Part shown: piece after piece, positions 1,177-19,944 of the stretch | How the letters are laid out: each line of letters begins with the position of its first letter | How positions within the stretch are numbered: position 1 is the first letter of the stretch | Assembly (NCBI GenBank): GCA_030040895.1 | Contig: JASHSJ010000002.1 | Coordinates: 1-58,433, forward strand | Length of the DNA: 58,433 bases | Source of the DNA: Microcaldota archaeon | GTDB taxonomy: Archaea > Micrarchaeota > Micrarchaeia > Micrarchaeales > Micrarchaeaceae | Reading direction: 5' to 3' | The notes under the pieces: model-generated | What the model was told of the DNA's origin: nothing | Seen by the model: only the letters and a program-made list of their open reading frames with translations | Database searches by the model: none | Made by a program: the position numbers and the translations under genes

Positions 1177-1183
1177 AAGGCTG

Positions 1184-1255: not shown

Positions 1256-1292
1256 ACGCTTAGTAGATTATGCGGAAAGCATTAAAGAATGT

Positions 1293-2834
1293 TCAGCTCT
1301 GCTGCGTTACCGGTCCCATGACTGCAGAGGGCATGACATAGTTTGGAGGCATACCACGAATCCTCACAAACTCTATATAGAGCTGTGACGTGGAGCTGGA
1401 TCCGGGGGCCGTCTGGGTGAAGAACTCAGGACGTATCTGTCCAGTTATGCCCACCGTTATGCCGTTTGACATTATTAGGCTTCCGCCCGGGTACGATATG
1501 TCGTTCCATGTAAAGTATGACAGGTTCGAGAACATCTGCTGGTCCATAATGTTGTAATTCGTAGCCGCTGATGGCAGCGGCACAGCCGTCCCGGTGTACG
1601 TACCTAGCCAGTAATACTGTGGCTGGGCCCCGCTCGACTTGGAATAATATCCGTAGTTCACCGTTGCAAGCCCGGTGCCCGCGTATGCTGTCATGTTGTC
1701 CATGATCCCCGTGCCGCTGCTGCCATAAGCATTCAGCAGAGCCTCCACTATGAAGCTCTTCACCGTGGTAGTGAACGGAATATTTGATGTTATTGAGGCA
1801 ATCTCGTTGCTGCCGGTGGACTCAAGCAATAAGCCGTTGCTGACCATTATCTTGCCGCCGTTCTGGTTTGCTGGAATCCAAAGAGCGGAAAGCGAAGAGC
1901 CAGCGAAGTCATCGTAGAAATTGAAAACTACATTTCCGTTGTCGTACTGCGCATAGTTAGCGCTCTGGTTCGGTGCCTCTCCGGCAAATACTCCATCATA
2001 TCCAACTGTATTTGACAAGAACTCCATCTTTATCACCACGTTTGAGCTTGGTTGTATAGCAAACGGCAGCCTGACCCAGAAGATCGCGTTTGTGACGGAG
2101 TTTGAGAGGCAGTTTATTTCGCACCAGCTGGGGAGTTCGGTGTTATAGTAGTAGAACCTTATGTTGCCCAGGGTGTTGCTCTCGTATGGGGTGTATGCGG
2201 TATTTGACGGCAGGAAGGTTATCTCTTGCTGGAAAGGCGCTGATGATGGGGCGTACTGCTGGTTAACAATTGTTATTGGGACATAGTATGAAGTCGTGAC
2301 GGCGTTCGCTATTATTGCATTGACGGAAATCGCCGATGCAGTTGGCTGAACCCTTATGCTGCCTCCGAAAATCGTATTTGATGCGGGCGTGCACGAAACA
2401 GTTGATACGTTTTGCGGCGCAACGGCGCAATAGTTTGAATAAACATCAAATGTTCCGGAATAAACGAGCGTCGGATTTGGCGTGAAACCGAAGTCTGCCA
2501 CGCAATATATTGTCTGCCCCTGTATCACGTTCTGGGGGGTGCAATACCCTGATGTGCTGCTCTTCGCATTCAGCACAGCGTTGAAACTTTGCACTGCGAC
2601 CACGCCGGGCTGCGCGGCCGTTGCCTCCAGGACAAGCGCAGACCCCCCGTTTGTCATTAGCAAAGTTGCATCAGAGCAAGTGAAACCGCTGTAGAAAGTG
2701 CACTGGAACGGCAGCGTGTACGATGGGAGGTTTATGAACAGAGCTATGGTTGCTATCACTATTGCAACTATTATAAACATGTAGCCATATACTGACAGGA
2801 ATTCTACGGCTGCCTGCGACCTCCCTGAATTCAT
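1293..2834 (-). CDS. Secreted class III signal-peptide (pilin-like) protein with DUF2341-like lectin domain
   Basis: The 513-residue protein starts with a short charged segment, then SQAAVEFLSVYG and a hydrophobic helix to about residue 33. This is the archaeal type IV pilin (class III) leader cut by a PibD/FlaK-type peptidase. A Cys-containing N-terminal domain resembles the one in the 953-residue protein at 26619-29480: both have a hydrophobic helix, an early Cys-x(n)-Cys, and a CTP-x(n)-C pattern. The middle part, with WVRLPFAIQPSSNVVIKM and a YDGVF segment near residues 250-280, resembles DUF2341, a lectin-like surface domain. It probably sits on the cell surface or a filament. No prepilin peptidase is in the window. 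Confidence 0.75.
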   Translation of the reverse strand: MNSGRSQAAVEFLSVYGYMFIIVAIVIATIALFINLPSYTLPFQCTFYSGFTCSDATLLMTNGGSALVLEATAAQPGVVAVQSFNAVLNAKSSTSGYCTPQNVIQGQTIYCVADFGFTPNPTLVYSGTFDVYSNYCAVAPQNVSTVSCTPASNTIFGGSIRVQPTASAISVNAIIANAVTTSYYVPITIVNQQYAPSSAPFQQEITFLPSNTAYTPYESNTLGNIRFYYYNTELPSWCEINCLSNSVTNAIFWVRLPFAIQPSSNVVIKMEFLSNTVGYDGVFAGEAPNQSANYAQYDNGNVVFNFYDDFAGSSLSALWIPANQNGGKIMVSNGLLLESTGSNEIASITSNIPFTTTVKSFIVEALLNAYGSSGTGIMDNMTAYAGTGLATVNYGYYSKSSGAQPQYYWLGTYTGTAVPLPSAATNYNIMDQQMFSNLSYFTWNDISYPGGSLIMSNGITVGITGQIRPEFFTQTAPGSSSTSQLYIEFVRIRGMPPNYVMPSAVMGPVTQQS

Positions 2835-2871
2835 GATATAGCTTCTTAATAAGCATTAAAATAATGTATGA

Positions 2872-3687
2872 TTGAAGGCCGTGGTTGCATTGGAAGACCA
2901 ATACTTGGAGTTGCTCAAGACAATAAAGCCGAACAGGAAGCTCGGCCAGTGCTTCCTGACGAGCAGGAGCATCGCGAAATCGGAAGCCAATTTCGGGATA
3001 GGAAAGAGTGTGGTGGAAATGGGGCCTGGGCTAGGCATACTAACAAGGGAACTGTGCAGGACTGCAGAAAAGGTTCTTTCCATAGAAAAAGACAGCAGGC
3101 TCTATGGAATACTCAAGAGCTCGTTGAAGTCGAAAAAGCTTTCGTTGGTCAATTCTGACTTCTTTGAGGTTCCAAAGACAAGGTTCAGGGGCATAGACAT
3201 AATGATATCAAATGTCCCATACGTGCTTTCCAGCAAGACGGTGTTCTGGCTTGCGCGCATGCGCATGCCGGCAGTGCTATGCCTGCAGAGGGAATTCGTG
3301 GGGCATATGCTTGCCACTGCGGGCAGCAATTCCTATTCAAGGCTCAGCGTTATGTCATCGCTCAGTTTCACAATAACAAAAATATTTGATGTCCCGAACA
3401 GTGACTTCTATCCGAGGCCTAATGTAAGCTCGTCTCTGATCCACATGAAGCCCAAGGGCACGCAGATAAGCGGGAATGAAGCCGCAATAATAGGCGCCCT
3501 GATGATGCACAAGAAGAAGACCGCAAGGAATGCAATAATAGACTCATCGGAGGAGTTTGGAATGAAGCACTCAGAAATAAAACCTATAGCCTCAAACATA
3601 AGGGGCTCGGAGAAAAGGCCCTTCCAGCTCAAGCCAAATGAATTGCTGGAAATGGCACGCGAGCTCGCAGACAAGATATCAGAATGA
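2872..3687 (+). CDS. ksgA: 16S rRNA dimethyladenosine transferase KsgA/Dim1
   Basis: This SAM-dependent enzyme dimethylates two adjacent adenosines in the 3' hairpin of 16S rRNA during small-subunit assembly. Seen in order: KLGQCFL near the N-terminus (family hallmark), the SAM loop VEMGPGLGILT, an SIEKD acidic turn, and motif IV NVPY. Length (271 aa) fits the family. No in-frame ATG precedes the conserved part. The start must be TTG 2872, GTG 2881 or TTG 2890, because an in-frame TGA lies at 2869-2871. The ATGs at 2864 and 2868 are out of frame. It overlaps the convergent hydrolase gene by 9 nt at its 3' end. Confidence 0.93.
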   Translation: MKAVVALEDQYLELLKTIKPNRKLGQCFLTSRSIAKSEANFGIGKSVVEMGPGLGILTRELCRTAEKVLSIEKDSRLYGILKSSLKSKKLSLVNSDFFEVPKTRFRGIDIMISNVPYVLSSKTVFWLARMRMPAVLCLQREFVGHMLATAGSNSYSRLSVMSSLSFTITKIFDVPNSDFYPRPNVSSSLIHMKPKGTQISGNEAAIIGALMMHKKKTARNAIIDSSEEFGMKHSEIKPIASNIRGSEKRPFQLKPNELLEMARELADKISE

Positions 3688-4344
3688 ATACCTGGGCTCT
3701 TGGACCTCTTTCATGAAGAGGGCGTTTTTCACCTTCTTCTTGAACTCCTGTTCTGCTGCATCAGCCTTCTCCTTGCCAAGAACCTGTTTGTAGTGCATTG
3801 GCACTGAGTGCTCGGCGCCGATTGCGTTGGCGGCTTCTGATGCCTCAGCCGCATCCATGACATACGTACCTCCCATCGGCAGCAGCGATGTCCATATGCC
3901 ATTGAGCCCTTTCATCTCATCTGTAAAATCTGTATCGCCAGCGTGGTAGATCTTTAGACCGCCTATGCCTATGATGTATCCGACCCAGTTGTTCTCCTTC
4001 GGGTGGAACATGAGCCTTTCCTTCTTGGTATTGTATGCCGGAACCGCTTCTATGCTGGATGTCTTGAACCTGTCACTGAATCCCGGCTTGGCGACCTGGA
4101 AGTTCTTGAACTCGTTGCCCCCGAGGCAGTTGGGCGCGCTTATGACAAGGCCTTCGGGCTTCAGCACCTTCGCTATTTCATCCTTGTTGCAGTGGTCCAT
4201 GTGTGCATGGGTTACCAAAACTAGGTCTGCCTTCTCGTTTATCGAAGGACCTATGTTGAACGGGTCTATGAATATCGTATATCCATCGTTCTTTATGTAG
4301 AACGACGCATGTCCTATCCAGAACAGCACCTTGTTTACGTCCAT
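3679..4344 (-). CDS. Metallo-beta-lactamase-fold hydrolase (UlaG/UPF0173-like)
   Basis: The 221-residue protein has the metal-binding HAHMDH motif at residues 46-51, a later HAGDTD and a C-terminal VPMHYK, as in UPF0173/UlaG-type metal-dependent hydrolases. It likely binds two Zn or Mn ions and acts in the cytoplasm; the substrate cannot be read from sequence. Unusually for this window the start has a clear Shine-Dalgarno GGAGG (plus-strand cctcc 4352-4356) seven nt before the ATG. A TATA box lies at about 4377-4383, and an inverted repeat sits between it and the expected transcription start, so repression is plausible. Confidence 0.88.
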   Translation of the reverse strand: MDVNKVLFWIGHASFYIKNDGYTIFIDPFNIGPSINEKADLVLVTHAHMDHCNKDEIAKVLKPEGLVISAPNCLGGNEFKNFQVAKPGFSDRFKTSSIEAVPAYNTKKERLMFHPKENNWVGYIIGIGGLKIYHAGDTDFTDEMKGLNGIWTSLLPMGGTYVMDAAEASEAANAIGAEHSVPMHYKQVLGKEKADAAEQEFKKKVKNALFMKEVQEPRYSF

Positions 4345-9721: not shown

Positions 9722-9776
9722 GCAACAACCTGATTAGGAATAGAAAGATATCCTTTAATATGCTGTGCTGTAAGAC

Positions 9777-10427
9777 TCAGGGCAGTTCTGAGCCTGTGAT
9801 GTTTGCCAGCTCTGTGGAGCTGACGTTCTTGCCTAGTGCAAGTACCTGCGTAACGTAAGATCCTTTCCAGCCTATCAGGCTAGAGCCAGCGGCCGTTGAG
9901 TTGCTGCTGATCAGATACGAGTATGTCATTCCATTACTTGTGCCGTTCAGCGTTACTATGGTGCTGTTCGTGTAGTTGAGAAACTCTGTGTAGAGCCCCT
10001 GAGGTGTGTATCCTGGCATGGGCTGCACATAGAGCACAATCTGCAATATGCTAGAGTTTGTCTGGTTGTACCAGGCGCCCCATATCTCTGTTACGTTCCA
10101 TAGTCCTGTGAAACCAGGCTCGTAGTATTCCTCAAACGCGCTGATCTGCCCTGGATCGGTGGTGCTCGTCCAGTTGTAAATCCCTCCGGTTCCAATGAGC
10201 GATGCGGCCTGCTGCTGGCTGATGATTATCTGGCCTGACTGGCTAGCGTTTGCCGAGATGTTCTGGGTTATAGTTGTTGTTGGGACTGTAGTGGCGGCAG
10301 CAGTAGTGGGCAGAGTGGTTAGCGTGCTTTTTGGCTGGCCAAGCAAGGTCGCCGCTACGGCCAGCACTATCAAAACCACAATTACGATGAATATGATGAT
10401 CAGGAGGTTGATTGTTTGTCCTGGCAT
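9777..10427 (-). CDS. Secreted, membrane-anchored protein of unknown function
   Basis: The 216-residue protein has one N-terminal hydrophobic helix (about 6-29), a Thr/Ala-rich linker (about 33-55), and then an extracellular domain with many N-glycosylation sequons (N-x-S/T). No known fold is recognised. The layout (TM, Thr-rich stalk, globular domain) recurs in the 294-residue protein at 14278-15162. It starts 7 nt after the Cys-rich secreted protein gene and is likely co-transcribed with it. Confidence 0.65.
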   Translation of the reverse strand: MPGQTINLLIIIFIVIVVLIVLAVAATLLGQPKSTLTTLPTTAAATTVPTTTITQNISANASQSGQIIISQQQAASLIGTGGIYNWTSTTDPGQISAFEEYYEPGFTGLWNVTEIWGAWYNQTNSSILQIVLYVQPMPGYTPQGLYTEFLNYTNSTIVTLNGTSNGMTYSYLISSNSTAAGSSLIGWKGSYVTQVLALGKNVSSTELANITGSELP

Positions 10428-10434
10428 AGAATCA

Positions 10435-11040
10435 CTAGTTTATCCCATATCTTGATCCAAGAGTCCAGTTGCCGTTCACATAGGCGCACTTGCAGTTCTG
10501 GTTGTTTGTACCGTTTGCAATGCCATCACAGGGTATGTTTGCCCTGCCTACGACAGAAATATCAACAATGCACGTTGCTTGTGACGTGCACGATGATGGG
10601 CAGGCTTCCGGCTGCGTCGGGTCTGGATGGCACACGCACGATGTAGCGTTGCCCTGCCCATAATCAGTCTGGTAGCCAGCACACCTTGCATATGGCTTGT
10701 AGATCTCTGATTGATTTACGTTGCAGTTAACGGCTGATGGGCCGCTACCCGGCGAACCCCCTACGCTGAACAGGTAGCAAGCCATCGGGCAGATGTTGGC
10801 GCCAGGGCTAGGTGCGCTCGGTGAAAAACCGAAGACAAGCTTATTGTGGGCTCCGGGCTTGGCGAACGGCCTGCCGAAGAATGTTGCAAAGTTAATGAAT
10901 CCGGGGCGTGTTCCTCCGGCTGCGAAGCTCAATGAGCCGCCGGATGGCTGCGCCGCATAGCTAGAAGAAAAAGATATAACCGTAAACACAACCAAGATCA
11001 CGATTGCAAAAACGGCGACCCCCCAGAGCCGTTCATTCAT
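10435..11040 (-). CDS. Secreted cysteine-rich protein of unknown function
   Basis: Starting at ATG 11040, the 201-residue protein has one N-terminal hydrophobic helix (about 5-27), which is a signal peptide or anchor. The mature part holds about 12 cysteines, several in pairs (SCVC, ACPSSC, NCKC), suggesting disulfides outside the cell. A TATA-like sequence at about 11063-11072 sits the right distance for a leaderless mRNA from 11040. The open frame extends upstream to 11106, but that part is not signal-like. The family is not recognised. Confidence 0.65.
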   Translation of the reverse strand: MNERLWGVAVFAIVILVVFTVISFSSSYAAQPSGGSLSFAAGGTRPGFINFATFFGRPFAKPGAHNKLVFGFSPSAPSPGANICPMACYLFSVGGSPGSGPSAVNCNVNQSEIYKPYARCAGYQTDYGQGNATSCVCHPDPTQPEACPSSCTSQATCIVDISVVGRANIPCDGIANGTNNQNCKCAYVNGNWTLGSRYGIN

Positions 11041-11097
11041 GTTGTAGCTATTGCACCCAACCATTATAAACATTCCTAAACTTGATTTAGCGCCGGC

Positions 11098-11124
11098 ACA
11101 TGCCAACTTCGATGTCGAATTGGC
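11098..11124 (+). repeat. Repeat family copy, diverged (acatgccaacttc type)
   Basis: The copy shares acatg, caacttc, and gaattggc with the copy at 15756-15822 in the same order and spacing. It lacks the tagctcca part. It lies just upstream of the minus-strand Cys-rich protein gene and is the leftmost copy seen. Confidence 0.5.
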
Positions 11125-11140
11125 TCGCTCTGCCTGGTAT

Positions 11141-11157
11141 AAATGACTTTGTCATTT
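11141..11157 (-). terminator. Candidate hairpin after the SET-domain gene
   Basis: AAATGAC, TTT, GTCATTT forms a perfect 7-bp stem with a 3-nt loop, 16 nt beyond the minus-strand stop at 11174. It may end the SET-gene mRNA. No clear T-tract follows on the minus strand, so confidence is low. Confidence 0.3.
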
Positions 11158-11173
11158 TATATGCTGCAGAAAG

Positions 11174-11515
11174 TTAAAAATCTTCGGATGACGTGTCGGG
11201 AATTGAGAGCTCTTCGCCCTTTCTTATGACCCTCAAGGCGACGTTGGCCCCATTTTCGAAATCTGGAGCCACGTTCGGATTCCTCGATCTGTTGACGTGC
11301 CTTTCTGGATCCGGATATAAATGGATGACGCCGTTACGCTTGTGCGTGAAATTCTCTCTTTCGTACTTTGGCAGTTTCCAGTATTCTTCCTCGGTCAGAG
11401 CCTTGAGCTTCCATTTTATCACAACATCGCCTTTCTTGAAGTCTCTGTTGGCGAAGGCGCCAAGGCCATCCTTGAACTGCCCGATTTCTGATTTCCCTAT
11501 CACAACGTCCGCCAT
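11174..11515 (-). CDS. Small SET-domain protein (putative lysine methyltransferase)
   Basis: The 113-residue protein is little more than a SET core: GLGAFANRDFKKGDVV at the N-terminus, NRSRNPNV in the position of the SET NHSxxPN motif, and KGEELSIPD where SET enzymes have GEELxxDY. SET proteins transfer methyl groups from SAM to lysines, on histones or other proteins in archaea. The His of NHS is Arg and the final Tyr is absent, so activity is uncertain. No pre-SET or post-SET is present. The promoter-like TATA lies in the repeat copy at 11541-11571. Confidence 0.68.
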   Translation of the reverse strand: MADVVIGKSEIGQFKDGLGAFANRDFKKGDVVIKWKLKALTEEEYWKLPKYERENFTHKRNGVIHLYPDPERHVNRSRNPNVAPDFENGANVALRVIRKGEELSIPDTSSEDF

Positions 11516-11540
11516 ATTAAACTCTCAGCCGTACATTATA

Positions 11541-11571
11541 ATAATATAGCTCCAGCATATGATGCTGCTAG
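11541..11571 (+). repeat. Repeat family copy (atatagctccagc) acting as SET-gene promoter region
   Basis: Contains atatagctccagc followed by an AGCAT/ATGCT inverted repeat in place of the usual hairpin. On the minus strand it reads GGAGCTATATTATTATAATG, a TATA-rich element 25-35 nt before the SET gene start at 11515. Same orientation as all other copies. Confidence 0.5.
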
Positions 11572-11642
11572 TGGAAAGTATGGTCTTAGTATGGTCTTAT
11601 AAATGGATGCAAACCAAGTAAACCATCTGCAAAGTAGATATT

Positions 11643-14174
11643 ATGGCTAAACCTATCCTTCATGGACACCACATAATGTTGGCAATAATAATATCATACT
11701 TTTTGATTCTTATTACTCTTGGCACTACGCTAGTGGGCCTGGCGGGTGCAATGGCGTGCGTCCTTGTCAACGGGGTACCGCAATGTATCACAGTATCAAC
11801 CACGATGCACTACTCTAGCTCTACTACTTTGAAGTCCAGCACTACACTATCTTCATCTTCAACCACACTGGAATCATCGAGCACTAGCACAATAACTATG
11901 CCAATTACGATCATGATAAGTAATGGCTGCGTCCAGCTAACTCAGTCAAATGCGATATACTTGCTGACTAGCAACATTGGCTGCAATGCCACCACCATCA
12001 GTCTTGTAAAAGGCGTTAGCGGGATAACCTTGAATTGCCAGGGTCACGAGATTGAGAACTATGCTCCAATCGAAGTTAATAATTACTCTCTTGATTTTCT
12101 GGGACAAAATAACAACAATATAGTAGAAAATTGTGTGATAAATCTTCCTTCTATTCCGCTTAACCACGCTGTAGCACAAACAATACTTGTGGCAAACAAT
12201 TCCAACCATAATGTCTTTTCAAACATTAACTTGGCCGCAAACACCTCTATCACGGTGATAAATTCCTCCTACATTGGTATAACCAATAGCGTGTTTACCT
12301 ATTCACTGGGCGCAGTACTAGCAACGAACTCGAGCGGCGATTACATCTACAATAATACGATTTTAAATGCGCTGACTGGGATTTCTCTGATAAATACGTC
12401 AAACACCCAGGTCCTAGGCAACAAAATATACAACGCCATTAATAGCGCCCTACTGATTGGCAAGAGTGACAACAACACCCTTAAAAACAACGTGATGGAC
12501 TGGAGTTATGATGACGCAATACAGACAAGATATATCGAAGCAAACGGGCAAGTTTATGTCGTAAACGGTACTACAATTGCGAACAACATAGCATTTGGCG
12601 ATGCGGACGCGTTCCTTGAAGACATTGGCAGCGACAACACCCTCATAGCAAACAACATAATAGGAGGCATCGGAAATGCGGCCATATGGTTCAATCTCTT
12701 CCCCGGTTTTAATCCCCCTCCTCCTGGCACCTTTTTTGATAATCATACGACAATCATAAACAACGTCTTCTATTCAATCAGCGGACAAAACTACGTGTAC
12801 AATGACTCCCCGCCGGGCGGAGTCAATCACGTTACGCTTTCCGACAACCTATTTACCAACTATACTCTAAATTCGTATCCACAGTACATAGCATTCTTTG
12901 TTGAGGTTGTTGGGACTTTTATAGTGGATACTTCGACTGGCGCCCACGCAATAAGGGCAACGAACATTAGCAATATGGCACTAACCCCATATATAAATGG
13001 TGTACAGCTGCCTAAGTTGCTGAAAGGGCAATCGGTAGCTTATGCTGGCGTAAACCTCACTTACTTCGGATTCTCACCCCTTTCTGATGCTGCCTATGCT
13101 TATGTAACCGCAGCAAGCAATACACAACAACCTCCAACATCCATAGTAGCTAGTGCGTCCCAGACAGGCATTCCTATTAATACTATCTTTAACCTGGTTG
13201 CCTATGTTCAAAATCCACCTCCAAAAGCTTACAACTTGAATTTCTGTGTTTGCAGCGGAGCTGGATGTAATCCTTCTGCTTCCCAATGCGAGCAATATGG
13301 TTTACCTGAAGCTGGCGGCGCTATCAGTGGTTTTTACCCGCTTTGCGTTTCCCCCGGATTCCCAGGTTGCTATGCACTCGGCACCTATGGGCTACAGGCA
13401 TATGTGGTACTGGCGAACGGCTTAACTTTGAGCAGCTCCACTAATACATTCACTATAATACCACCCCCTCCTCAGGTATCTCTCAACTGGTCCCAGACAA
13501 ACGTAACCGTGGGCAATTCTGTCACGGCAAACGCACTAGTCACGAACCCCCCATCAATGACATACTATACCCAACTCCATTATTGCAATGGCATATGCAA
13601 TCCAACGTCAAGCAGTCCAACGATAGGCAATGCCGTTTATAATTCCACAAATCCATCATTGTCCTTCAACACTTCCGAAACATCTAGCACCTGCCCACCT
13701 GGCGCTGGCAACTGCCTCGGACCAGGCAACTATACCATTATAGCATGCACCACATATGGCACACCAACGCCAACGTATAATGTATGCAGTAGCGGCTTTC
13801 TCTGGCTATTGAACGTCACAGGATATCCACTGGTGTCAATTTCGAGCATATCTCCAAATCCAGCCGCATATAATGCGCAAATAACGATAGCGACAACAAT
13901 CACAAACCCCCCAGCCAACGGAGACTACATAGCGCTTTTTGAATGCTCACCGGCGCCTTGCACGCCATCAACCTCTAACATAGGCTATGAGGGCCAGAGC
14001 CTATCCGGCAGTGTTGGAAAATACGATTTCACTGTATGCGGCCACGCGTATTGCTGGCCGGCTGGAAATTATAACGTAACGGCGTGCGTTTCTGGGATAT
14101 TGAGCACCCCCGGACCTCCATGGCCCTATTGCAGCGCAGTGGAAGGACTCACTGTAGAAGATCAAGGCGGTTAG
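11643..14174 (+). CDS. Large surface protein: parallel beta-helix plus Cys-rich NPP repeats
   Basis: The 843-residue protein begins with a hydrophobic helix (GHHIMLAIIISYF onward, about 8-37) and a Ser/Thr-rich stalk (about 55-90). Residues about 110-430 have the repeating N-N-x-I/V pattern of right-handed beta-helix (PbH1/NosD-like) proteins, with ITLNCQGHEI as a typical first rung. From about 500 to the end there are three Cys-rich beta domains starting at NPP. The same domains and a nearly matching leader occur in the 402-residue protein at 50016-51224. Beta-helices often bind or cleave polysaccharide; no catalytic residues are evident. It likely sits on the outer surface. Confidence 0.75.
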   Translation: MAKPILHGHHIMLAIIISYFLILITLGTTLVGLAGAMACVLVNGVPQCITVSTTMHYSSSTTLKSSTTLSSSSTTLESSSTSTITMPITIMISNGCVQLTQSNAIYLLTSNIGCNATTISLVKGVSGITLNCQGHEIENYAPIEVNNYSLDFLGQNNNNIVENCVINLPSIPLNHAVAQTILVANNSNHNVFSNINLAANTSITVINSSYIGITNSVFTYSLGAVLATNSSGDYIYNNTILNALTGISLINTSNTQVLGNKIYNAINSALLIGKSDNNTLKNNVMDWSYDDAIQTRYIEANGQVYVVNGTTIANNIAFGDADAFLEDIGSDNTLIANNIIGGIGNAAIWFNLFPGFNPPPPGTFFDNHTTIINNVFYSISGQNYVYNDSPPGGVNHVTLSDNLFTNYTLNSYPQYIAFFVEVVGTFIVDTSTGAHAIRATNISNMALTPYINGVQLPKLLKGQSVAYAGVNLTYFGFSPLSDAAYAYVTAASNTQQPPTSIVASASQTGIPINTIFNLVAYVQNPPPKAYNLNFCVCSGAGCNPSASQCEQYGLPEAGGAISGFYPLCVSPGFPGCYALGTYGLQAYVVLANGLTLSSSTNTFTIIPPPPQVSLNWSQTNVTVGNSVTANALVTNPPSMTYYTQLHYCNGICNPTSSSPTIGNAVYNSTNPSLSFNTSETSSTCPPGAGNCLGPGNYTIIACTTYGTPTPTYNVCSSGFLWLLNVTGYPLVSISSISPNPAAYNAQITIATTITNPPANGDYIALFECSPAPCTPSTSNIGYEGQSLSGSVGKYDFTVCGHAYCWPAGNYNVTACVSGILSTPGPPWPYCSAVEGLTVEDQGG

Positions 14175-14177
14175 TTC

Positions 14178-14205
14178 GATATAGCTCCAGCGTATATCAA
14201 GCTAT
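14178..14205 (+). repeat. Repeat family copy (gatatagctccagcg)
   Basis: Directly after the stop of the beta-helix gene, atatagctccagcgtat matches the family core. The usual hairpin is replaced by ATAGCT/AGCTAT flanking arms. No minus-strand gene starts nearby, so promoter use is not evident here. Confidence 0.5.
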
Positions 14206-14235
14206 GGGTCGAACCGACTCTCCGTTTCCGTTGGC

Positions 14236-14248
14236 TTAATATATTTAA
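14236..14248 (+). promoter_or_regulatory. TATA box for the secreted protein gene at 14278
   Basis: The TATA-like run ttaatatatttaa ends 30 nt before ATG 14278, which fits leaderless archaeal transcription and argues against the TTG at 14266 as start. Confidence 0.5.
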
Positions 14249-14277
14249 CTATTGATTATGCTGCATTGCGTGATTCG

Positions 14278-15162
14278 ATGGAAGCCGACCCACCTTTACA
14301 GAGCCGGACTTCCGATACCGCACCAGAGACAGCTTATGCGCCCAAAAGCGTAAGCAGGGGCCCAATTGTCGCTGGCGTACTCGCGGTAGTAATCGTGATT
14401 TGCCTTGCTTATTTATATCTCAGTGGTGGGATTGGTAGTGCTGCAAAAATGCAAGGTGCAACCACGGCAAGCACCCAACCTACTACTACACAGGCCACTA
14501 GCACGTATTCCGGTACCTATGATGGACAGTACGTGACACTGACTAGATTATTTGGAGCAAGCACGTCTATTGAGGACCTGCCTGACGCCACACAGGTCGG
14601 CTATTTATACAACTTTTCGACTACCAATTCTACAGTTGCGTGCCTGGATGGCGAACCGATACTCGTCTGGACGGCGCCAAATGAATATCCTGGTGAATAT
14701 ATAGCACACAATGGTAATCAAGGTACACAGTGCGCTTATGTAACTCTGCTATTCCCGCAAAGTTCCACTGTTACAACACCGCCACCGCAAAGTTCCACTG
14801 TTACAACACCATCTGCATCCGAATTAACATTCCAATTTAGCAATATAGCAAACTATGACAATGGGCCTACTGTCACGTTGTTTAATGGGGGCGAGCTTAT
14901 ATTCGATACATCAAACGATACAGCATCGGTGACTTTGAGCAACGGGACGATTATCAATTTCGGCCAGCTCACATCAATATGCCACAGTTGCACTTCTGGG
15001 GCATATGCATATTCAAAAGACTGGAGCCCTGATCAGAAGATTGAAGATGGTATAGAATTTGAGGCGGTTTTTGTGAGCAATATAACAACATCTTACATAT
15101 CTTTCGAGTATCCGCCGAGCATCAATAACTATGCCTATTCCGCTAATTATAGTGCGCCATAG
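14278..15162 (+). CDS. Secreted or membrane-anchored protein with Thr/Ser stalk, unknown function
   Basis: The protein (294 residues from ATG 14278) has a cytoplasmic N-terminus of about 35 residues, one membrane helix (about 36-55), a Thr-rich linker and an extracellular region. That region holds a short domain, a ten-residue tandem repeat (PQSSTVTTPP twice, DNA period 30 nt), and a second domain with several N-glycosylation sequons. No family is recognised. The architecture matches the 216-residue protein at 9777-10427. It is followed after 11 nt by a repeat-family copy. Confidence 0.62.
   Translation: MEADPPLQSRTSDTAPETAYAPKSVSRGPIVAGVLAVVIVICLAYLYLSGGIGSAAKMQGATTASTQPTTTQATSTYSGTYDGQYVTLTRLFGASTSIEDLPDATQVGYLYNFSTTNSTVACLDGEPILVWTAPNEYPGEYIAHNGNQGTQCAYVTLLFPQSSTVTTPPPQSSTVTTPSASELTFQFSNIANYDNGPTVTLFNGGELIFDTSNDTASVTLSNGTIINFGQLTSICHSCTSGAYAYSKDWSPDQKIEDGIEFEAVFVSNITTSYISFEYPPSINNYAYSANYSAP
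14755..14810 (+). repeat. Tandem duplication, 30-nt period, within the coding region
   Basis: Two identical 26-nt copies (14755-14780 and 14785-14810) are spaced exactly 30 nt apart, encoding a repeated ten-residue Pro/Ser/Thr linker. Exact identity suggests a recent slippage event and likely length variation between strains. Confidence 0.8.
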
Positions 15163-15173
15163 GCAAGCAAAAG

Positions 15174-15210
15174 TTGCTCCAGCGTAATCCAACTTCAATG
15201 TTGGATTAGC
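15174..15210 (+). repeat. Repeat family copy with perfect 9-bp hairpin
   Basis: ttgctccagcg is followed by TAATCCAAC, a 6-nt loop, and GTTGGATTA, then gc. The 21 nt gctccagcg...cttc segment (15176-15196) is identical to parts of the copies at 17102-17155 and 19839-19871. It lies at the downstream end of the Doc-toxin module, between it and the convergent plus-strand gene. Confidence 0.7.
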
Positions 15211-15226
15211 CCGCTTATCCCTGCCC

Positions 15227-15346
15227 TTAGCGCATTCTTGTTTTGGCCTGCAATGCTATAGCGTAGACTTCATCCCTAAGCCTAGCTTCAAGCGCAGCCC
15301 AGCGCTTTCTTTCCTTCTTCAATATTGTCATGAAGCTCTTGTTCAT
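15227..15346 (-). CDS. Small basic ORF overlapping the Doc toxin gene (39 aa)
   Basis: ATG 15346 overlaps the doc stop codon as ATGA, and the frame runs 39 codons to TAA at 15227. The product begins MNKSFMTILKKE and is helical and Arg/Lys-rich (ERKRWAALEARL). The translational coupling is the main support. It could be a small partner or antitoxin of the Doc-like toxin, or just a short chance frame. No family is recognised. Confidence 0.4.
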   Translation of the reverse strand: MNKSFMTILKKERKRWAALEARLRDEVYAIALQAKTRMR

Positions 15347-15705
15347 TCAATCATCTTCTTTATCCATCTTTTTACTTGTAGCCGGTTTTCTTTTCCCTGT
15401 GCTATCTTATTCAGATAGGTTCCTACGACATCTATTTGGCTTTTCTTATATTTAAATGTAATGTTGTTGAGTTCGAGGAACGTTACCATTGAATAGAAAG
15501 CTGTCCTTTTGTTGCCATTGAGGAATATGTGCAATGATATTATGTCATGGAGAAGCACGGCAGCATAATTGAATATGTCATCAGTATATTCCAGCTTGTC
15601 CATCAGCTGGGCCAAGTTCGATTTGTTCAGAACAGTGCCACCCTCTTCTATGCTTTTATTTACCGCTATTATCTGCTCCGAAGTGAGCTTTACAAGTTCA
15701 GACAT
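15343..15705 (-). CDS. doc: Doc-type (Fic fold) toxin
   Basis: The 120-residue protein carries the Fic/Doc motif HIFLNGNKRT at residues 59-68. In Doc, a kinase-like Fic relative, HxFxxxNKR directs phosphorylation of EF-Tu and stops translation. In Fic AMP-transferases the end is GNGR; here NKR favours the Doc type. The typical partner Phd is encoded upstream, but no Phd-like gene is present. Instead a 39-codon ORF overlaps downstream. The promoter region is the repeat-family element at 15757-15794, about 50 nt before the start. Confidence 0.82.
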   Translation of the reverse strand: MSELVKLTSEQIIAVNKSIEEGGTVLNKSNLAQLMDKLEYTDDIFNYAAVLLHDIISLHIFLNGNKRTAFYSMVTFLELNNITFKYKKSQIDVVGTYLNKIAQGKENRLQVKRWIKKMIE

Positions 15706-15755
15706 ACACTGACTTCACTCCTAAGCCTTAAAGCTTTTGTTGGAGAAGAGAAAGT

Positions 15756-15822
15756 GTGATTTTGCTAATTTGAGTTTACCTTTATATAGCTCCAACATGT
15801 CAACTTCAAAGTTGAATTGGCC
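15756..15822 (+). repeat. Repeat family copy with 38-bp conserved block and hairpin
   Basis: A 38-nt block (15757-15794) identical to those at 16337 and 17987 is followed by a TCAAC/GTTGA hairpin with a 6-nt loop and gaattggcc. It separates the doc module from the DUF4258 gene. Confidence 0.75.
15757..15794 (-). promoter_or_regulatory. Conserved TATA promoter block upstream of doc
   Basis: Read on the minus strand: GGAGC TATATAAAGG, then about 25 conserved nt. The TATATAAA (plus 15781-15788) puts transcription start near 15757-15760, 52-55 nt before the doc ATG. The same 38 bp precede two unrelated gene modules. Confidence 0.55.
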
Positions 15823-15837
15823 AATATGAGTAAAGTT

Positions 15838-16071
15838 TCATGGCAAATATTTTTTAATTTTCTTAGTTTCCCATGCCGTAATTATGAACTTTACGCCGCC
15901 GCTAAGCGAATATATGACTATAACAACTTTATTTCCGAATAGCTTGATTGCTTGATATTCGTCATCTTTTCTGTGTAGCTTGTCTGGTGCATCTGCCGTC
16001 AGACTTACCTGTTCGGCACTAAGCTTCCTTTCGGCAATCCTCTTGAGCGCATGCTTAGAGAAAATCAGCAT
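15838..16071 (-). CDS. DUF4258 protein, putative RelE-like toxin
   Basis: The 77-residue protein begins with the DUF4258 pattern FSKHALKRIAERKLS and ends with IITAWET. DUF4258 has a predicted RelE/ParE-like fold and is commonly encoded next to small antitoxin-like genes. The start codon overlaps the stop of the DUF2283 gene by one base (TAATG), implying coupled expression. RNase or other toxin activity is inferred from fold and context only. Confidence 0.72.
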   Translation of the reverse strand: MLIFSKHALKRIAERKLSAEQVSLTADAPDKLHRKDDEYQAIKLFGNKVVIVIYSLSGGVKFIITAWETKKIKKYLP

Positions 16072-16301
16072 TAACTTACCAGGACTACATTTTCAAACTC
16101 TTTTACGAGCTTTCCCAGTTTGAAGTTTACTTTTGAGAAGTTTAGTATCTCTATGCCGATAAGCTTCTTGTTCTTGTCGAGATCGGCTAGTACATTGTCC
16201 TCTATTTCTGCGGTTTCGTAGACTTTTGCCCCTTTCTTAACCTTTATGTATGCAGCGTCGGCCTCTTGATCGTATTCGAATATGTATTCCTTCATAATCA
16301 T
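16071..16301 (-). CDS. DUF2283 protein, putative antitoxin partner
   Basis: The 76-residue protein matches DUF2283: EYDQEADAAYIKV near residues 9-21, TAEIEDNVLADLD in the middle, and the GIEIL motif. DUF2283 and DUF4258 genes are often adjacent in archaea and bacteria and are treated as a toxin-antitoxin-like pair. Start may be ATG 16301 or the next ATG at 16295. Its promoter is the conserved block 16337-16374, giving a leader of roughly 36 nt. Confidence 0.75.
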   Translation of the reverse strand: MIMKEYIFEYDQEADAAYIKVKKGAKVYETAEIEDNVLADLDKNKKLIGIEILNFSKVNFKLGKLVKEFENVVLVS

Positions 16302-16336
16302 GTTTGGTGCGAATCTGTATTAAAGCCTTTCGTATT

Positions 16337-16374
16337 TGATTTTGCTAATTTGAGTTTACCTTTATATAGCTCCA
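16337..16374 (-). promoter_or_regulatory. Conserved TATA promoter block upstream of the DUF2283/DUF4258 pair
   Basis: The same 38 bp as at 15757-15794 and 17987-18024, read on the minus strand with TATATAAA at plus 16361-16368. Predicted transcription start near 16337-16340, about 36-40 nt before the DUF2283 ATG. Confidence 0.55.
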
Positions 16375-16403
16375 GCGTAATCCGACTTCGATGTTGAGAT
16401 AGC
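16338..16403 (+). repeat. Repeat family copy with 38-bp block, between DUF2283 and VapC genes
   Basis: The identical 38-nt block (16337-16374) runs into gcgtaatccgacttcgatgttgag, where the hairpin is weakened by substitutions, and ends with tagctc, the beginning of another unit. A separate CTACT/AGTAG inverted repeat follows at about 16413-16426. Confidence 0.75.
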
Positions 16404-16441
16404 TCTGAATTACCTACTCTCGAGTAGTCCGATTTAAAGAT

Positions 16442-16822
16442 TTAATTGAACAGTTCAAGTCCATTACGTTGCATATCCTTAAAATGATCCCTATCAAATG
16501 TGTATAACTTCCCTTTGTTGTTTATTGTTATTGCTGCAATCATTGTGTCTGTTCTGCGTACCCGCCTGCCTCTCCCTTCTGTTTCGAATTCAAGCGCCGC
16601 GGATAAAACAGAATCAGCTTTCGTATACTCTAGAACTGGCAAGCCTAATATGTTTTGAGCTTCTTTGGCATATTTGTATATACCATATAGCACCTCATGG
16701 AGTGTTATTGTAGTTATCCCTATGTCTTCACCGGCTTCTGCAATTTTCCTGAGCGCCTCATCTCCTTTCTCTGATTGCTTCTCGAAAATCTCTATTAGAA
16801 CATCTGTATCTATGACAATCAT
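16442..16822 (-). CDS. vapC: VapC-type PIN-domain ribonuclease toxin
   Basis: The 126-residue PIN protein has the acidic metal-binding set: D5 in VIDTD, E43 in LHEVLYG, D92 in RTDTMIA and D110 in YTFDRDHF. VapC toxins cleave RNA, often tRNA or rRNA, when freed from VapB. It starts one base after the end of the vapB gene, so the two are coupled. Confidence 0.9.
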   Translation of the reverse strand: MIVIDTDVLIEIFEKQSEKGDEALRKIAEAGEDIGITTITLHEVLYGIYKYAKEAQNILGLPVLEYTKADSVLSAALEFETEGRGRRVRRTDTMIAAITINNKGKLYTFDRDHFKDMQRNGLELFN

Positions 16823-17032
16823 TTATCTCAGCTCTGCTCTTTTGGCATAGATCTCGTTTAGCATGCCCTTCTTGTCTCTAAACACAAACCTGCCTCTTAA
16901 CCCTTTGAGGGCATCGAGAGGCGTGGCAAGCTTCACCAGCCTATCGAATAAATCGCTAAAGCTTTCGCTCTTCTTTTTGACTTTTGTCAGCTCCAGATAT
17001 ACTTCATTTTTTATTGTTATTGTCTTGGACAT
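16823..17032 (-). CDS. vapB: VapB antitoxin, DUF217 (UPF0330) family
   Basis: The 69-residue protein matches the archaeal DUF217 antitoxin: a SKTITIKNEVYLEL strand-helix start, the ESFSDLFDRL motif near residues 23-32, and a basic C-terminal tail that would wrap VapC. It neutralises VapC and should repress its own promoter. An imperfect 20-bp palindrome at 17039-17058 and a TATA-like run near 17057-17068 are placed for that role. Confidence 0.88.
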   Translation of the reverse strand: MSKTITIKNEVYLELTKVKKKSESFSDLFDRLVKLATPLDALKGLRGRFVFRDKKGMLNEIYAKRAELR

Positions 17033-17038
17033 AATATC

Positions 17039-17058
17039 GTTTAAACATATGTGTAAAC
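17039..17058 (-). promoter_or_regulatory. Imperfect palindrome, probable VapB operator
   Basis: The 20-nt GTTTAAACATATGTGTAAAC differs from its own reverse complement at one symmetric pair of positions. It lies 7 nt before the vapB ATG and abuts the TATA-like run. A dimeric antitoxin could autoregulate here. Confidence 0.55.
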
Positions 17059-17101
17059 ATATATTTAAGTATTTCTATCAACTAGGCATTTTAGATAACC
17101 T

Positions 17102-17155
17102 CAACTTCTAAGTCGACTTAGCTCCAGCGTAATCCAACTTCTGAGTTGAATTAGC
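17102..17155 (+). repeat. Repeat family copy carrying an exact 27-nt tRNA-Gln 3'-end direct repeat
   Basis: 17102-17128 is identical over 27 nt to 19855-19881, which spans the last 10 nt of tRNA-Gln plus its flank. It is followed directly by a second unit (tagctccagcgtaatcc...) with a CCAAC/GTTGA-type hairpin ending in ttagcc. It lies between vapB and the metallopeptidase gene. Confidence 0.8.
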
Positions 17156-17192
17156 CTCACGAAAACACTAAGTGCTATCTATGATTTGGCGT

Positions 17193-17969
17193 TTATTGAG
17201 ATAAACGCTTCTTTGGCAATATGGCCTTTGGCCACTGTCTTGCAGCAGCTGGTGCAGGAAGCTCTTTGAAGAATTTGAACAGGGCAGTTCTTCTTTTGCT
17301 AGGCTTGGTTTCCGCTTCTATCAATTTAATGAACATATCAACATATTTCAAATTTTTTTCAAATGTTGTTTTTGCTCCGTGCTTTTTAGTCCATTCGATC
17401 CGCTCCTTCAAGAACCCGACATCCCTGCCATAGTAATTTCCAAGATAGTATTCCGCAAACACTGTCATGCCTTCGTTATATTTCCATCTATTGTCCCCTG
17501 TGTTATAAAACCCCAGTCTGTTGTAATTGAAAAGCGTGTGCATCCATTCGTGGAACATTACATCGAAAGAGTCTTCGGAGATTTTCTGCTTGGACGCTTT
17601 TACTATAGGAGAGTATCCCATGCTATTTGGCCTGATCTTCTTTGCTAGTTTTTCTATCATACTCTTATGTTTTGGATCATTTAGAAGTTTTATGTAACTA
17701 AGAATATACCGTTTTTGCACAGCAAGCCCTTTAGAGTCGATTTTGATTAGGTCGTTGGAGAGCAGAAATTTTTCGAAGTTTTTAGCCCTCTGTTGGCCTG
17801 GTTTACCGAATTTTTTATCATACGCTGGGCTCCCTGCTAGATAGTTCAATATATTAACCTCTTTCTTTGTCAAAAAACTCGCTACAAATATTTTACGATC
17901 GAATTTCAGGCCAAGCTGGTCTGCTTTCTCCCTTATTTTCCTCAAAACCTCTTCTTTGCCCTTGTGCAT
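17193..17969 (-). CDS. HEXXH zinc metallopeptidase-like protein
   Basis: The 258-residue protein has HEWMH at 140-144 and NEGMTVFAEY with Glu166, the gluzincin arrangement where two His and a downstream Glu bind Zn and the Glu of HEXXH activates water. There is no signal peptide, so it probably works in the cytoplasm unless exported another way. The N-terminal half is Lys-rich and helical; no family is recognised there. It lies within the repeat-delimited array, with the conserved 38-bp promoter block ending 18 nt before its start. Confidence 0.72.
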   Translation of the reverse strand: MHKGKEEVLRKIREKADQLGLKFDRKIFVASFLTKKEVNILNYLAGSPAYDKKFGKPGQQRAKNFEKFLLSNDLIKIDSKGLAVQKRYILSYIKLLNDPKHKSMIEKLAKKIRPNSMGYSPIVKASKQKISEDSFDVMFHEWMHTLFNYNRLGFYNTGDNRWKYNEGMTVFAEYYLGNYYGRDVGFLKERIEWTKKHGAKTTFEKNLKYVDMFIKLIEAETKPSKRRTALFKFFKELPAPAAARQWPKAILPKKRLSQ

Positions 17970-17985
17970 CTAAACACATTTGTTA

Positions 17986-18051
17986 GTGATTTTGCTAATT
18001 TGAGTTTACCTTTATATAGCTCCACCCTAATTCTAATGACTTTAGGGTTAG
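17986..18051 (+). repeat. Repeat family copy with 38-bp block and changed but intact hairpin
   Basis: After the shared 38 nt the arm sequence becomes ACCCTAA and TTTAGGGT: the hairpin is kept although the bases differ from the CCAAC/GTTGG arms of other copies. It sits directly upstream of the metallopeptidase gene. Confidence 0.75.
17987..18024 (-). promoter_or_regulatory. Conserved TATA promoter block upstream of the metallopeptidase gene
   Basis: Third exact copy of the 38 bp. TATATAAA at plus 18011-18018 predicts transcription start near 17987-17990, roughly 18-21 nt before the ATG at 17969. The rest of 18052-18187 shows no convincing gene. Confidence 0.55.
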
Positions 18052-18187
18052 TATCTTTTTGCATTCTCAAAGGAGTTTTAATATCGTTTTTCGATTACAT
18101 TCTGACCCTATACTATGGTACAGGGTTGCAAGATCCACAAGGAATTGATATTAAAACCCACGCAGAAACGGAAACGTAGTACTCCAA

Positions 18188-19720
18188 TTAGTCACTATGT
18201 ACCAAACCAGTCCACTCACCTGAAGTAACATTTGGTAAGGTAAGAGACCCGACAAGACTGGCCCCGCTTGCTACATAAAGTTTCGTACTATTCGCAATAT
18301 AGACATAGTTGTTAACAGGGTCGTAGCCGAACATCATAACAGTACTTGAAACGGCAGGTAGAGAGCCTGCTAATGAAGTTCCGCTTATAACTGCCGTTCC
18401 GCTTGCAGCAGGCACATAAACATAATTGTTCGAAGGATTGCTAAATAGATATGGAGCAGGTACGTTGTTATTGGTGCCACCTATATTGATATTTGCTATT
18501 GGGGTGTTGCTTCCACCAAATACAGTTATGTTGTTGCGTAATTGGAAGTAGGTATACCCGCTTTGGTTATTTTGCCCTAAATTATAGCCTGCCTGCAGAA
18601 TTCCCGTGCTATTATGAGTAGGAACCAAGGCTGTACCGTTAAATACTGATATCAAACCACCAGGAACCACCGGTGTGGAATACAGAGTGCCCTGTATCTG
18701 GTCGTAGCTCAAAGCACCAAAGTTACCATAAATCTTGTTTGTCAGACTTGTGCCGCTAATCAAGTAAAGAGTGTCGTTGGGGTAGCTTGCTAAACCATAT
18801 GTGTAACTTCCAAAAGAGTAAATTGGGGTTACGGTTCCTGATGTCGAAATTGTGGTTGCAAGCTGGGTTCCGGTTATCACAGCAATACCGCTGCCGAAAG
18901 TAGGAACGTACAGATGTTGGTTGTTGAAGCTCATGCTTCCACCAGGACAACCCGAAAGGCTTACAGTACTAACTAATGAGGTTCCGCTAACCACATATAC
19001 CTCGTTTGGAGAGCACGACGCTATGTACAAATCGTTATTGTAGGTATCGTACACCATGCCGACTGGCGAACTTATTGACAACATGCTGCTTACCAGTTGC
19101 CCGCCTTTGAAGATATTAAGTGAGAACGAAGAACCTGACGAAGAATTCAGCGCAAGAACGTAGGCGTATCCATTAGTTCCTGTACTACCCAGGGGCAGAT
19201 TTATTCGGCCCGATAGTGTTACCGTGCCAACGATCTGGGTGCCGTGAATCACAGATACCTCTCTTGATCCCTGAGAGAACGCATACATATAATCATTGTA
19301 ATTTTGCAACACGGTTGTCGTGGTACTAGAGGTTGTAGTAACTGACGTAGTGGAGCCAGACGAAGTACTACTTGTACTAGCTGAAATTGTAGATATAGTA
19401 CTTGATTGGGCTATTGTAGTAGAGCTTGAGGAGGTACCACCAATGATAGATATTGTTGGAACCGTTGTTTGCTGGGTAGAAGTGACAGGAGCAGTAGCAG
19501 ATGCAGGTACTATTGTTGGTGTAGTTGTTGATACAGAGGTGGTGCTTGTAGTAGTTGAACCTGTAAAGAGATGTGAAAAGAAGTTAGCAATTCCATGGAA
19601 GAAATTAGTAATTGAGCTAAAAATCCCCAGATAAACAGGATTGGGCAGTATGCTAGAGGCGCTTACAATACTGATCAGCAAGGTTGATGCCAAGAGCATT
19701 AAAACTAAGGACTTAGACAT
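18188..19720 (-). CDS. Secreted YVTN-type beta-propeller surface protein
   Basis: The 510-residue protein has an N-terminal signal or anchor helix (about 4-22) and a Ser/Thr-rich stalk (about 55-145). A run of roughly seven to eight repeats follows, of the form YDxxNNxxYVxSGTSLVxTVxLSG, typical of YVTN/40-residue beta-propellers of archaeal surface-layer proteins. The repeat sequences are close to each other, so the propeller probably arose by recent internal duplication. It likely mediates surface contact. TATA-like tttaaa at 19743-19748 fits a leaderless mRNA. Confidence 0.8.
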   Translation of the reverse strand: MSKSLVLMLLASTLLISIVSASSILPNPVYLGIFSSITNFFHGIANFFSHLFTGSTTTSTTSVSTTTPTIVPASATAPVTSTQQTTVPTISIIGGTSSSSTTIAQSSTISTISASTSSTSSGSTTSVTTTSSTTTTVLQNYNDYMYAFSQGSREVSVIHGTQIVGTVTLSGRINLPLGSTGTNGYAYVLALNSSSGSSFSLNIFKGGQLVSSMLSISSPVGMVYDTYNNDLYIASCSPNEVYVVSGTSLVSTVSLSGCPGGSMSFNNQHLYVPTFGSGIAVITGTQLATTISTSGTVTPIYSFGSYTYGLASYPNDTLYLISGTSLTNKIYGNFGALSYDQIQGTLYSTPVVPGGLISVFNGTALVPTHNSTGILQAGYNLGQNNQSGYTYFQLRNNITVFGGSNTPIANINIGGTNNNVPAPYLFSNPSNNYVYVPAASGTAVISGTSLAGSLPAVSSTVMMFGYDPVNNYVYIANSTKLYVASGASLVGSLTLPNVTSGEWTGLVHSD

Positions 19721-19788
19721 GTTAACTTATCTGCCAAAAAGGTTTAAATAGTAGTGCAAATAACGCTCAGAAATAGCTGTATTCTAAA

Positions 19789-19823
19789 GCCAAACCCGTA
19801 CAGATTCGAACTGGGGTCCTCGG
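19789..19823 (-). pseudogene. Decayed tRNA 3'-end (T-arm) remnant
   Basis: Shares a 14-nt T-arm sequence (cagattcgaactgg at 19801-19814) exactly with tRNA-Gln at 19882-19895, but the T stem pairs over only 3 bp and no 5' half is visible. It is best read as a leftover tRNA 3' end. Confidence 0.45.
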
Positions 19824-19838
19824 CGACAAGAAATTCCG

Positions 19839-19871
19839 TAGCTCCAGCGTAATCCAACTTCTAAGTCGACT
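19839..19871 (+). repeat. Repeat family copy abutting the tRNA-Gln 3' end
   Basis: One 33-nt unit (tagctccagcgtaatcc...gact) ends exactly where the tRNA-Gln gene's own tagctccagc begins. The unit and the tRNA end form a tandem arrangement, and 19855-19881 is the 27-nt sequence repeated at 17102-17128. Confidence 0.8.
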
Positions 19872-19944
19872 TAGCTCCAGCCAGATTCGAACTGGCGTCG
19901 CAAGGTCCAGAGCCTTGCATCCTTGACCACTAGACGATGGAGCT
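19872..19944 (-). tRNA. tRNA-Gln (CTG anticodon)
   Basis: On the minus strand: acceptor AGCTCCA/TGGAGCT, discriminator A, anticodon stem CAAGG/CCTTG around loop CTCTGGA (anticodon CTG), and T arm GCCAG TTCGAAT CTGGC. CCA is not encoded. The A1-U72 first pair fits archaeal tRNA-Gln. Its 3' end sequence recurs in the repeats to the left, marking it as a likely integration site. Confidence 0.92.

Follow-up and report, generated by a model that had tools for sequence, protein, structure and literature searches.

The route by which ultra-small, host-dependent archaea acquire genes is poorly known, and one stretch of Micrarchaeota DNA puts the question in a compact form: why is a tRNA-Gln gene followed by a row of short gene modules that are separated by repeats resembling its own 3′ end? 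The stretch, called the window here, is 58,433 nucleotides (nt) of contig C6 of a 764-kb, 92%-complete metagenome-assembled genome (MAG), and the row of modules, called the array, occupies positions 11088-19871. Our analysis indicates that the array probably grew stepwise as small non-autonomous cassettes entered at the 3′ end of tRNA-Gln(CTG) by integrase-type recombination, with the recombinase acting in trans. If this is right, the tRNA gene is a landing site that piles up single genes, notably toxin-antitoxin (TA)-like pairs and surface proteins, each without a recombinase. Coordinates are given on the plus strand; the tRNA-Gln gene and most of the cargo lie on the minus strand, and tRNA-proximal means high coordinates. 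The relatives compared were Candidatus Micrarchaeota MAGs, some labelled Micrarchaeaceae, with a family set of 85 genomes used for profile and integrase scans and a wider set of 164 genomes for pattern searches.

The anchor is the tRNA-Gln(CTG) gene at 19872..19944 (minus strand). Its last 10 nt, GCTGGAGCTA (19872-19881), constitute a core that is repeated nine times downstream, at 11088, 11547, 14182, 15174, 15787, 16367, 17119, 18017 and 19839, always in the orientation of the tRNA. The tRNA strand of 11000-19871 contains five exact and eight one-mismatch cores and the opposite strand none; first-order simulations (n = 300) gave means of 0.03 exact and 0.33 one-mismatch cores, with maxima of 1 and 3. 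The cores divide the array into nine units of 0.03-2.6 kb, numbered from the distal end toward the tRNA, each with one gene or one TA pair except the ninth, which is empty. All nine copies are noncoding, although open reading frames (ORFs) occupy 85% of the array (noncoding sequence is 14.6%). Each gap between modules (86-218 nt) holds one copy, and the internal joins of the two TA operons hold none. These counts bear out the first-pass annotation, made from the letters of the window, which had described about nine repeats in a single orientation that fall one to each module junction and resemble the tRNA-Gln 3′ end.

The same annotation had assigned a 33-nt core to every copy. Only six copies retain an adjoining 26-nt dyad, in which GCTAATTCAAC-N6-GTTGGATTAC precedes the core at the distal end of a unit. 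They score 45-56 bits against a profile of the dyad copies, for which E-values are rough, and all lie on the minus strand: a9 (19839..19875, core 19839-19848; 56.3 bits), a7 (17119..17155, core 17119-17128; 56.4 bits), a6 (16367..16403; 53.8 bits), a5 (15787..15821, with a 2-nt deletion; 45.2 bits), a4 (15174..15210, with a perfect 9-bp dyad; 55.7 bits) and a1 (11088..11124; 49.7 bits), the distal copy, which has the most degenerate core (GCCGGCGCTA). The other three, likewise on the minus strand, have the core only: a8 (GGTGGAGCTA, 18017..18026) and a2 (exact core, 11547..11556) are without the standard dyad, and in a3 (exact core, 14182..14191) the dyad has decayed. The repeat had also been aligned with the T-arm and acceptor of tRNA-Gln. 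That alignment holds for the tRNA 3′ end, but the dyad and the T-arm are only weakly alike (about 9/17 positions, by eye), and a firm T-arm copy occurs only in an arm of unit 8 that is described below.

Read in the sense of the tRNA, each unit consists of a core, a tRNA-proximal end, the gene or genes, the distal dyad and the next core. The tRNA-proximal ends fall into three types. Type A, TATAAAGGTAAACTCAAATTAGCAAAATCA, is 30 nt long and identical on units 4 (15757..15786), 5 (16337..16366) and 7 (17987..18016; all minus strand), despite their unrelated genes (Doc; DUF2283/DUF4258; a metallopeptidase), and was not found outside these three units in the 85 genomes. Type B, AGTCGACTTAGAAGTTG, is present on units 6 (17102..17118, minus strand) and 9 (19855-19871), and type C, CGGAATTTCTTGTCGCCGAGGACCCCAGTTCGAATCTG, on unit 8 (19801..19838, minus strand). 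Several coordinates given earlier for the repeats turned out to belong to these ends: the grouping was correct, but 15756, 16338 and 17986 mark the start of a second repeat, end A, and 17102 that of another end type. In unit 6, end B (CTCAACATCGAAGTCG) and the distal dyad (CTCAACTTCTAAGTCG) are near-perfect inverted repeats by eye. Core and end A joined give CTATATAAAGG, a good archaeal TATA box 48-82 nt upstream of the start codons (the TATATAAA boxes of units 7, 5 and 4 are at 18018, 16368 and 15788, minus strand), and judged by its sequence this end may have a promoter role.

Could the repeats then be non-mobile regulatory elements, such as terminators or insulators, that resemble the tRNA end by chance? 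They stand in every inter-module gap, some copies fold into hairpins, and the type A ends yield the TATA box. However, the copies match the tRNA tail and keep its orientation even beside plus-strand genes, and they are absent elsewhere in the genome and from non-tRNA operons in this and related genomes. Terminator-like matches were at background (10 vs 7.0 ± 2.8) with none at a repeat, and terminators were rejected on this count. Of the explanations weighed here we regard this one as the least probable.

The form of the dyad calls to mind two site-specific recombination systems. Its 9-bp arms with a 6-bp spacer resemble the layout of dif, and dif modules are also found with TA and adaptive genes (PMC6449649), so that host XerA might recombine the palindromic dyads and the proximity of the tRNA might be incidental. 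Yet the central 6 nt vary among copies, the conserved boundary is the tRNA tail, all sites have one orientation with no other full copy in the genome, and no canonical XerA was found in this 92%-complete genome (a 63.7-bit match vs a cut-off of 220). Site orientation and genome context thus disfavour dif modules, which we consider very unlikely. In the second system, that of integron cassettes without an integrase (clusters of attC sites lacking integron integrases, CALIN), the dyads would be attC sites that fold single-stranded and are recombined by an integron integrase. The single-gene cassettes with TA pairs, the uniform site orientation and the hairpin 3′ of minus-strand genes fit this idea, both dyad arms of two copies conform, on reading the sequence, to the R-box consensus (RYYYAAC ... 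GTTRRRY), and integrons occur in archaeal MAGs (PMC9668308). But the unit boundary lies at the tRNA core, about 10 nt from any GTTRRRY, the R-like boxes are 6 nt apart, L boxes are missing, and the units target a tRNA. No integron integrase was found in the genome either, the sole candidate scoring 26.9 bits vs a cut-off of 265. Pairing within the dyad was 84.6%, vs 85.6% for shuffled pairing; this lack of covariation suggests that the dyad is bound by protein in its double-stranded state and does not act as a folded single strand. The locus is a single-gene cassette array with same-orientation sites, but the integron integrase (IntI), the R-and-L-box architecture and conserved fold of attC, and a G/TTRRRY boundary were not found, and we rejected the CALIN assignment, which is even less probable than dif modules.

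The sites are specific to this locus. No full core-dyad site was found in the rest of the genome or at any other tRNA gene examined, which rules out a plain dispersed repeat, an outcome that the earlier reading had named as one that would contradict it. The exact dyad-core had no match in GTDB contigs or in IMG/VR and is therefore private to this genome in those sets. Same-strand arrays of tail copies were sought at tRNA-Gln in 80 named loci and in 39 relatives, and none was comparable; the next most numerous set was four near-matches over 17 kb in G018. No array was seen in the large tRNA-integrase elements of genus g19, which were inspected for longer ones. The contigs of the relatives are fragmented, and arrays in them may be cut. 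As a separate observation, this genome (G000) has several tRNA genes on or close to the ends of contigs (C4, C17, C21, C23, C24, C25, C28 and C34), which may hide insertions or strain variation at tRNA sites.

We compared the insertion site among relatives. An M50 gene, tRNA-Gln, a gap and three TrkA-type genes follow one another in this order across much of the family. From tRNA-Gln to TrkA the gap measures 10,150 nt here vs about 80 nt in G006 (locus L050) and about 200 nt in G004. GC content is 38-40% in units 4-7, 43% in unit 8 and 45-47% in units 1-3, and reaches the host value of 51% immediately past the last copy. Because the genes at 9722-11087 have host composition and no repeat, the edge of the island was put at 11088. 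The distal units are nearest to host GC content and the most degenerate core is outermost, which fits growth from the tRNA outward. Module order, whose conservation across relatives would have spoken against accretion, is not conserved. Between the array and TrkA, two predicted secreted proteins (window 9777-11106) have host-like GC content and no homologue in any relative locus compared; they are either native or an older, fully ameliorated insertion. In another relative (G020, L046) the insertion site itself is duplicated locally: two tandem tRNA-Gln(CTG) genes (17557-17632 and 18941-19016) are separated by TrkA-like genes.

Stepwise accretion at the tRNA-Gln 3′ end, as the first-pass annotation had proposed, is supported by the tail copies, the near-direct joins in G006 and G004, the composition edge at the last repeat and the presence in relatives of other cargo at the same tRNA, flanked by sites of related sequence. 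Mechanistically, the 10 nt of a circular cassette would recombine with the last ~10 nt of the tRNA (GCTGGAGCTA) in a reaction of the tyrosine-recombinase type. The tRNA would stay intact, while one tail copy and the cassette's own dyad would be displaced to the distal side. New cassettes would enter beside the tRNA and the oldest units would end up distal. The recombinase would most likely be supplied in trans by a tRNA-targeting integrase from a co-resident or transient element, an idea that becomes directly testable if this scheme is right.

Inserts in other genomes provide the comparative evidence. A profile was built from the six dyad copies, a check proposed along with the original description, and scanned over the 85 family genomes; its best outside match lies behind tRNA-Gln in a genome of another genus (G023:C1:152172-152209, 21.1 bits, 2.3 kb downstream of the tRNA and in the same orientation). 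This site terminates an insert of 33% GC in a genome of 48% GC, whose ORFs appear by eye to be Nudix-like and nucleotidyltransferase-like. By our own estimate, there is little chance that the best match of 85 genomes would fall in that gap (about 3 kb out of roughly 65 Mb). When the other weak profile matches were checked for neighbouring tRNA genes, none apart from that in G023 resembled a cassette end. In each of the congeners G005 and G003, tRNA-Gln is followed by a VapBC-like pair whose bounding motif, AGTACCT(n)ATAATC...CTGGAG, is present in these two only of the 164 genomes. The inserts have 36% GC vs 47-49% for the genomes and no integrase, and that of G005 consists of two cassettes. 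At a further locus, L250, from another Micrarchaeota MAG, tRNA-Gln is followed by an arm of the unit 8 type and by VapBC-like genes instead of the propeller gene, and the distal end shares 75% identity across 53 nt with its counterpart in unit 8 (18069..18120, minus strand). The same ends at the same site with different cargo and no recombinase are the signature of non-autonomous cassettes. Several of these sequence comparisons are short, and their weight rests on the common tRNA position as much as on identity.

The arm of unit 8 also connects the array to known integrases. Relatives of the 324-amino acid (aa) integrase of this genome were detected in 48 of the 85 family genomes, with up to 12 matches per genome, and those near a tRNA gene sit at its 3′ end. 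After the tRNA tail, their elements often have about 5 bases, ATTTTGTCGTCG or a variant, about 10 bases and a T-arm copy. This left attachment (attL) arm pattern (ATTTnTTGTCGnCG n10 T-arm copy) is present within the array in unit 8 only, where it forms end C and includes a copy of the tRNA-Gln T-arm. The arm, which follows the core at 19839, matches the tRNA-Gln junction in L234 at 25/28 positions; within it, the T-arm stretch is identical at 21/21 positions to the tRNA-Gln of another MAG (L255). Nine places in the 164 genomes have the pattern (0 for the reversed control), seven of which adjoin a tRNA tail or tail copy. Some of these integrases leave only 12-16 nt of tRNA at the right attachment (attR) end, and elements of the closest subgroup duplicate only 13-16 nt, comparable to the 10 nt here. 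An integrase was not found downstream of tRNA-Gln in L250 or L234, and neither integrase nor transfer genes were recognised among the array units.

Several observations concern these integrases more generally. In G031 (contig C21, L049/L257) a 4.2-kb integrase-coding element (1-4232 downstream) occupies the same tRNA-Gln and carries on its far side a perfect 45-nt copy of the tRNA; it is likely of the helper type for cassettes at this site. G031, G084 and G086 (about 1.1-1.3 Mb) have 9-12 matches each to related tRNA-targeting integrases, a large load for archaea of this size. At L288 (G087:C14:29168-29195) a degenerate tRNA-Gln(TTG) tail is directly followed by an integrase arm, and an intact tRNA is missing; two elements probably adjoin in tandem here, close to a contig end. 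The tRNA-Val element (G000:C15:1-3012, L075/L152) has at its attR end 50 nt identical to a tRNA-Val end plus downstream flank on C25:225-331 (L147), and the stretches upstream of the two tRNA-Val genes (C15 and C25) are 77% alike. Either this element supplies both the tRNA and the 3′ part of the gene itself, or the bin is a mixture of strains.

The unit 8 arm bears equally on the most serious alternative, that the units are decayed remains of larger integrase-coding elements that inserted in tandem and were each trimmed to one gene, similar to cis-mobilizable elements (CIMEs). Unit 8 would be such a remnant, having a full integrase-type arm but no integrase, and the 4.2-kb element in G031 shows an integrase-coding form at the same tRNA. 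The older look of the distal units is in line with decay, and decay to CIMEs followed by accretion is a documented bacterial route (PMC5704250). On the other hand, no recombinase or integrase remnant was recognised in any unit, the units are cut closely around a single intact gene or TA pair, leaving gaps of 86-218 nt between modules, and three of them have an identical end that abuts different genes. The single VapBC inserts of G003 and L250, which are of comparable size, and the two-cassette insert of G005 also argue for a minimal form. Decay and cassette insertion share an entry mechanism and part only over whether the minimal form itself is mobile; we judge decay possible, though the less probable course of events.

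Insertion of ready-made cassettes by a recombinase in trans faces difficulties of its own. The genome's sole tyrosine recombinase found, the 324-aa protein, is encoded in a separate 2.9-kb element at tRNA-Val(GAC) and none is encoded in the array; ends A and B were matched to no integrase, and a recognisable arm is present on unit 8 alone. The bare 10-nt core, all that is retained at 14182, 18017 and 11547 (3/9 copies), is short for a crossover region. In units 2 and 3 the cargo reads on the opposite (plus) strand. Finally, the evidence base is one MAG of a single strain.

The cargo is diverse. Starting from the tRNA, unit 9 (19839-19871) has no gene, only 33 nt between core a9 and the tRNA gene, and unit 8 (18017-19838) encodes a secreted, propeller-like protein without a confident Pfam match (18188..19720, minus strand). 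Unit 7 (17119-18016) encodes a metallopeptidase-like protein with an HExxH...E motif and no Pfam match (17193..17969, minus strand). Its one close relative, 56% identical, comes from a different genus (G071), where it is located directly at a tRNA-Arg 3′ end. The HExxH and downstream Glu are kept in three relatives, and no Pfam family or solved structure was matched by sequence. Unit 6 (16367-17118) contains a VapB antitoxin gene (16823..17032, PF02697, 3.1e-10) and a gene for VapC, a PIN domain toxin (16442..16822, PF01850), both on the minus strand. In unit 5 (15787-16366) a TA-like pair is formed by DUF2283 (16071-16301) and DUF4258 (15838-16071) proteins (15838..16301, minus strand). Unit 4 (15174-15786) encodes a Doc/Fic family toxin (15343..15705, minus strand), for which PADLOC gave weak partial matches to candidate-defence models only. 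The two plus-strand genes encode a predicted secreted protein of no family in unit 3 (14182-15173; gene 14266..15162) and a right-handed beta-helix secreted protein in unit 2 (11547-14181; gene 11643..14174, PF13229). Unit 1 (11088-11546) encodes a SET domain protein (11174..11515, minus strand, PF00856).

How does this array compare with known systems? The tRNA-integrase elements of Micrarchaeota share its class of insertion site and the arm seen in unit 8; they differ in that they encode an integrase, measure about 1.8-4.7 kb, are mostly single and, in the classical ones, duplicate up to 45 nt of the tRNA. In the dif (p-dif) modules of Acinetobacter the sites alternate between C/D and D/C orientation and use XerC/XerD and dif, whereas the sites of the array share one orientation and contain the tRNA tail. 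The two have in common small TA or adaptive modules that are bounded by palindromic sites and encode no recombinase, which in the array too would act in trans (PMC6449649). Tycheposons likewise are tRNA-anchored and have cargo of variable content, some without full mobility genes. They are larger, with recognisable recombinase or replication modules, and we know of no nine-unit single-gene tycheposon arrays. Tycheposons and the tRNA-associated island cargo of marine bacteria are named in PMC10872708.

Integron and CALIN arrays are similar in being linear series of single-gene cassettes with TA cargo, one same-orientation site each and one anchor. Here, in contrast, the anchor is a tRNA gene, the site is a tRNA tail plus a short dyad, attC architecture and IntI are lacking, and some cassettes appear to have their own promoter end. 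Integrons have been documented in archaea, with Micrarchaeota not named in the main text of that report (PMC9668308). If stepwise cassette insertion is right, it extends integron-like collecting of cassettes at one spot to a different recombination site. A broader and more tentative proposal, rather doubtful at present, is that DPANN archaea have a tRNA-anchored, integron-like system in which a diffusible tRNA integrase encoded elsewhere would take up one-gene cassettes (tail core, dyad and promoter-bearing end) and stack them at a tRNA 3′ end for expression.

The nearest relatives are tRNA-site islands and CIMEs. The first-pass annotation had held that no archaeal element with this layout is described. 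Our search found no description of such arrays in Micrarchaeota in the open literature, most subscription journals lying outside its coverage, but the claim is too strong, since CIME-type accretion is a known process in bacteria, where tandem accretion with recombinase-less CIMEs is documented (PMC5704250). Islander covers 3919 islands and counts among them only 4 tandems with at least three members; entries need an integrase and a length of 2 kb or more, and this array would therefore be missed (PMC4383910). The diagnostic signature, tail copies in one orientation with one per gene gap, would escape island finders with such requirements. Like tRNA-site islands and CIMEs, the array has an intact tRNA followed by displaced same-strand tail copies at its boundaries, entry at the tRNA 3′ end, a near-empty site in relatives, att sites without an integrase, so that units would be moved with or by other elements, and tandem stacking. 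What sets it apart is that its nine units measure 0.03-2.6 kb and are each limited to a single gene or pair, and this nine-unit, mostly single-gene tRNA array is a striking new form of the known accretion of recombinase-less islands.

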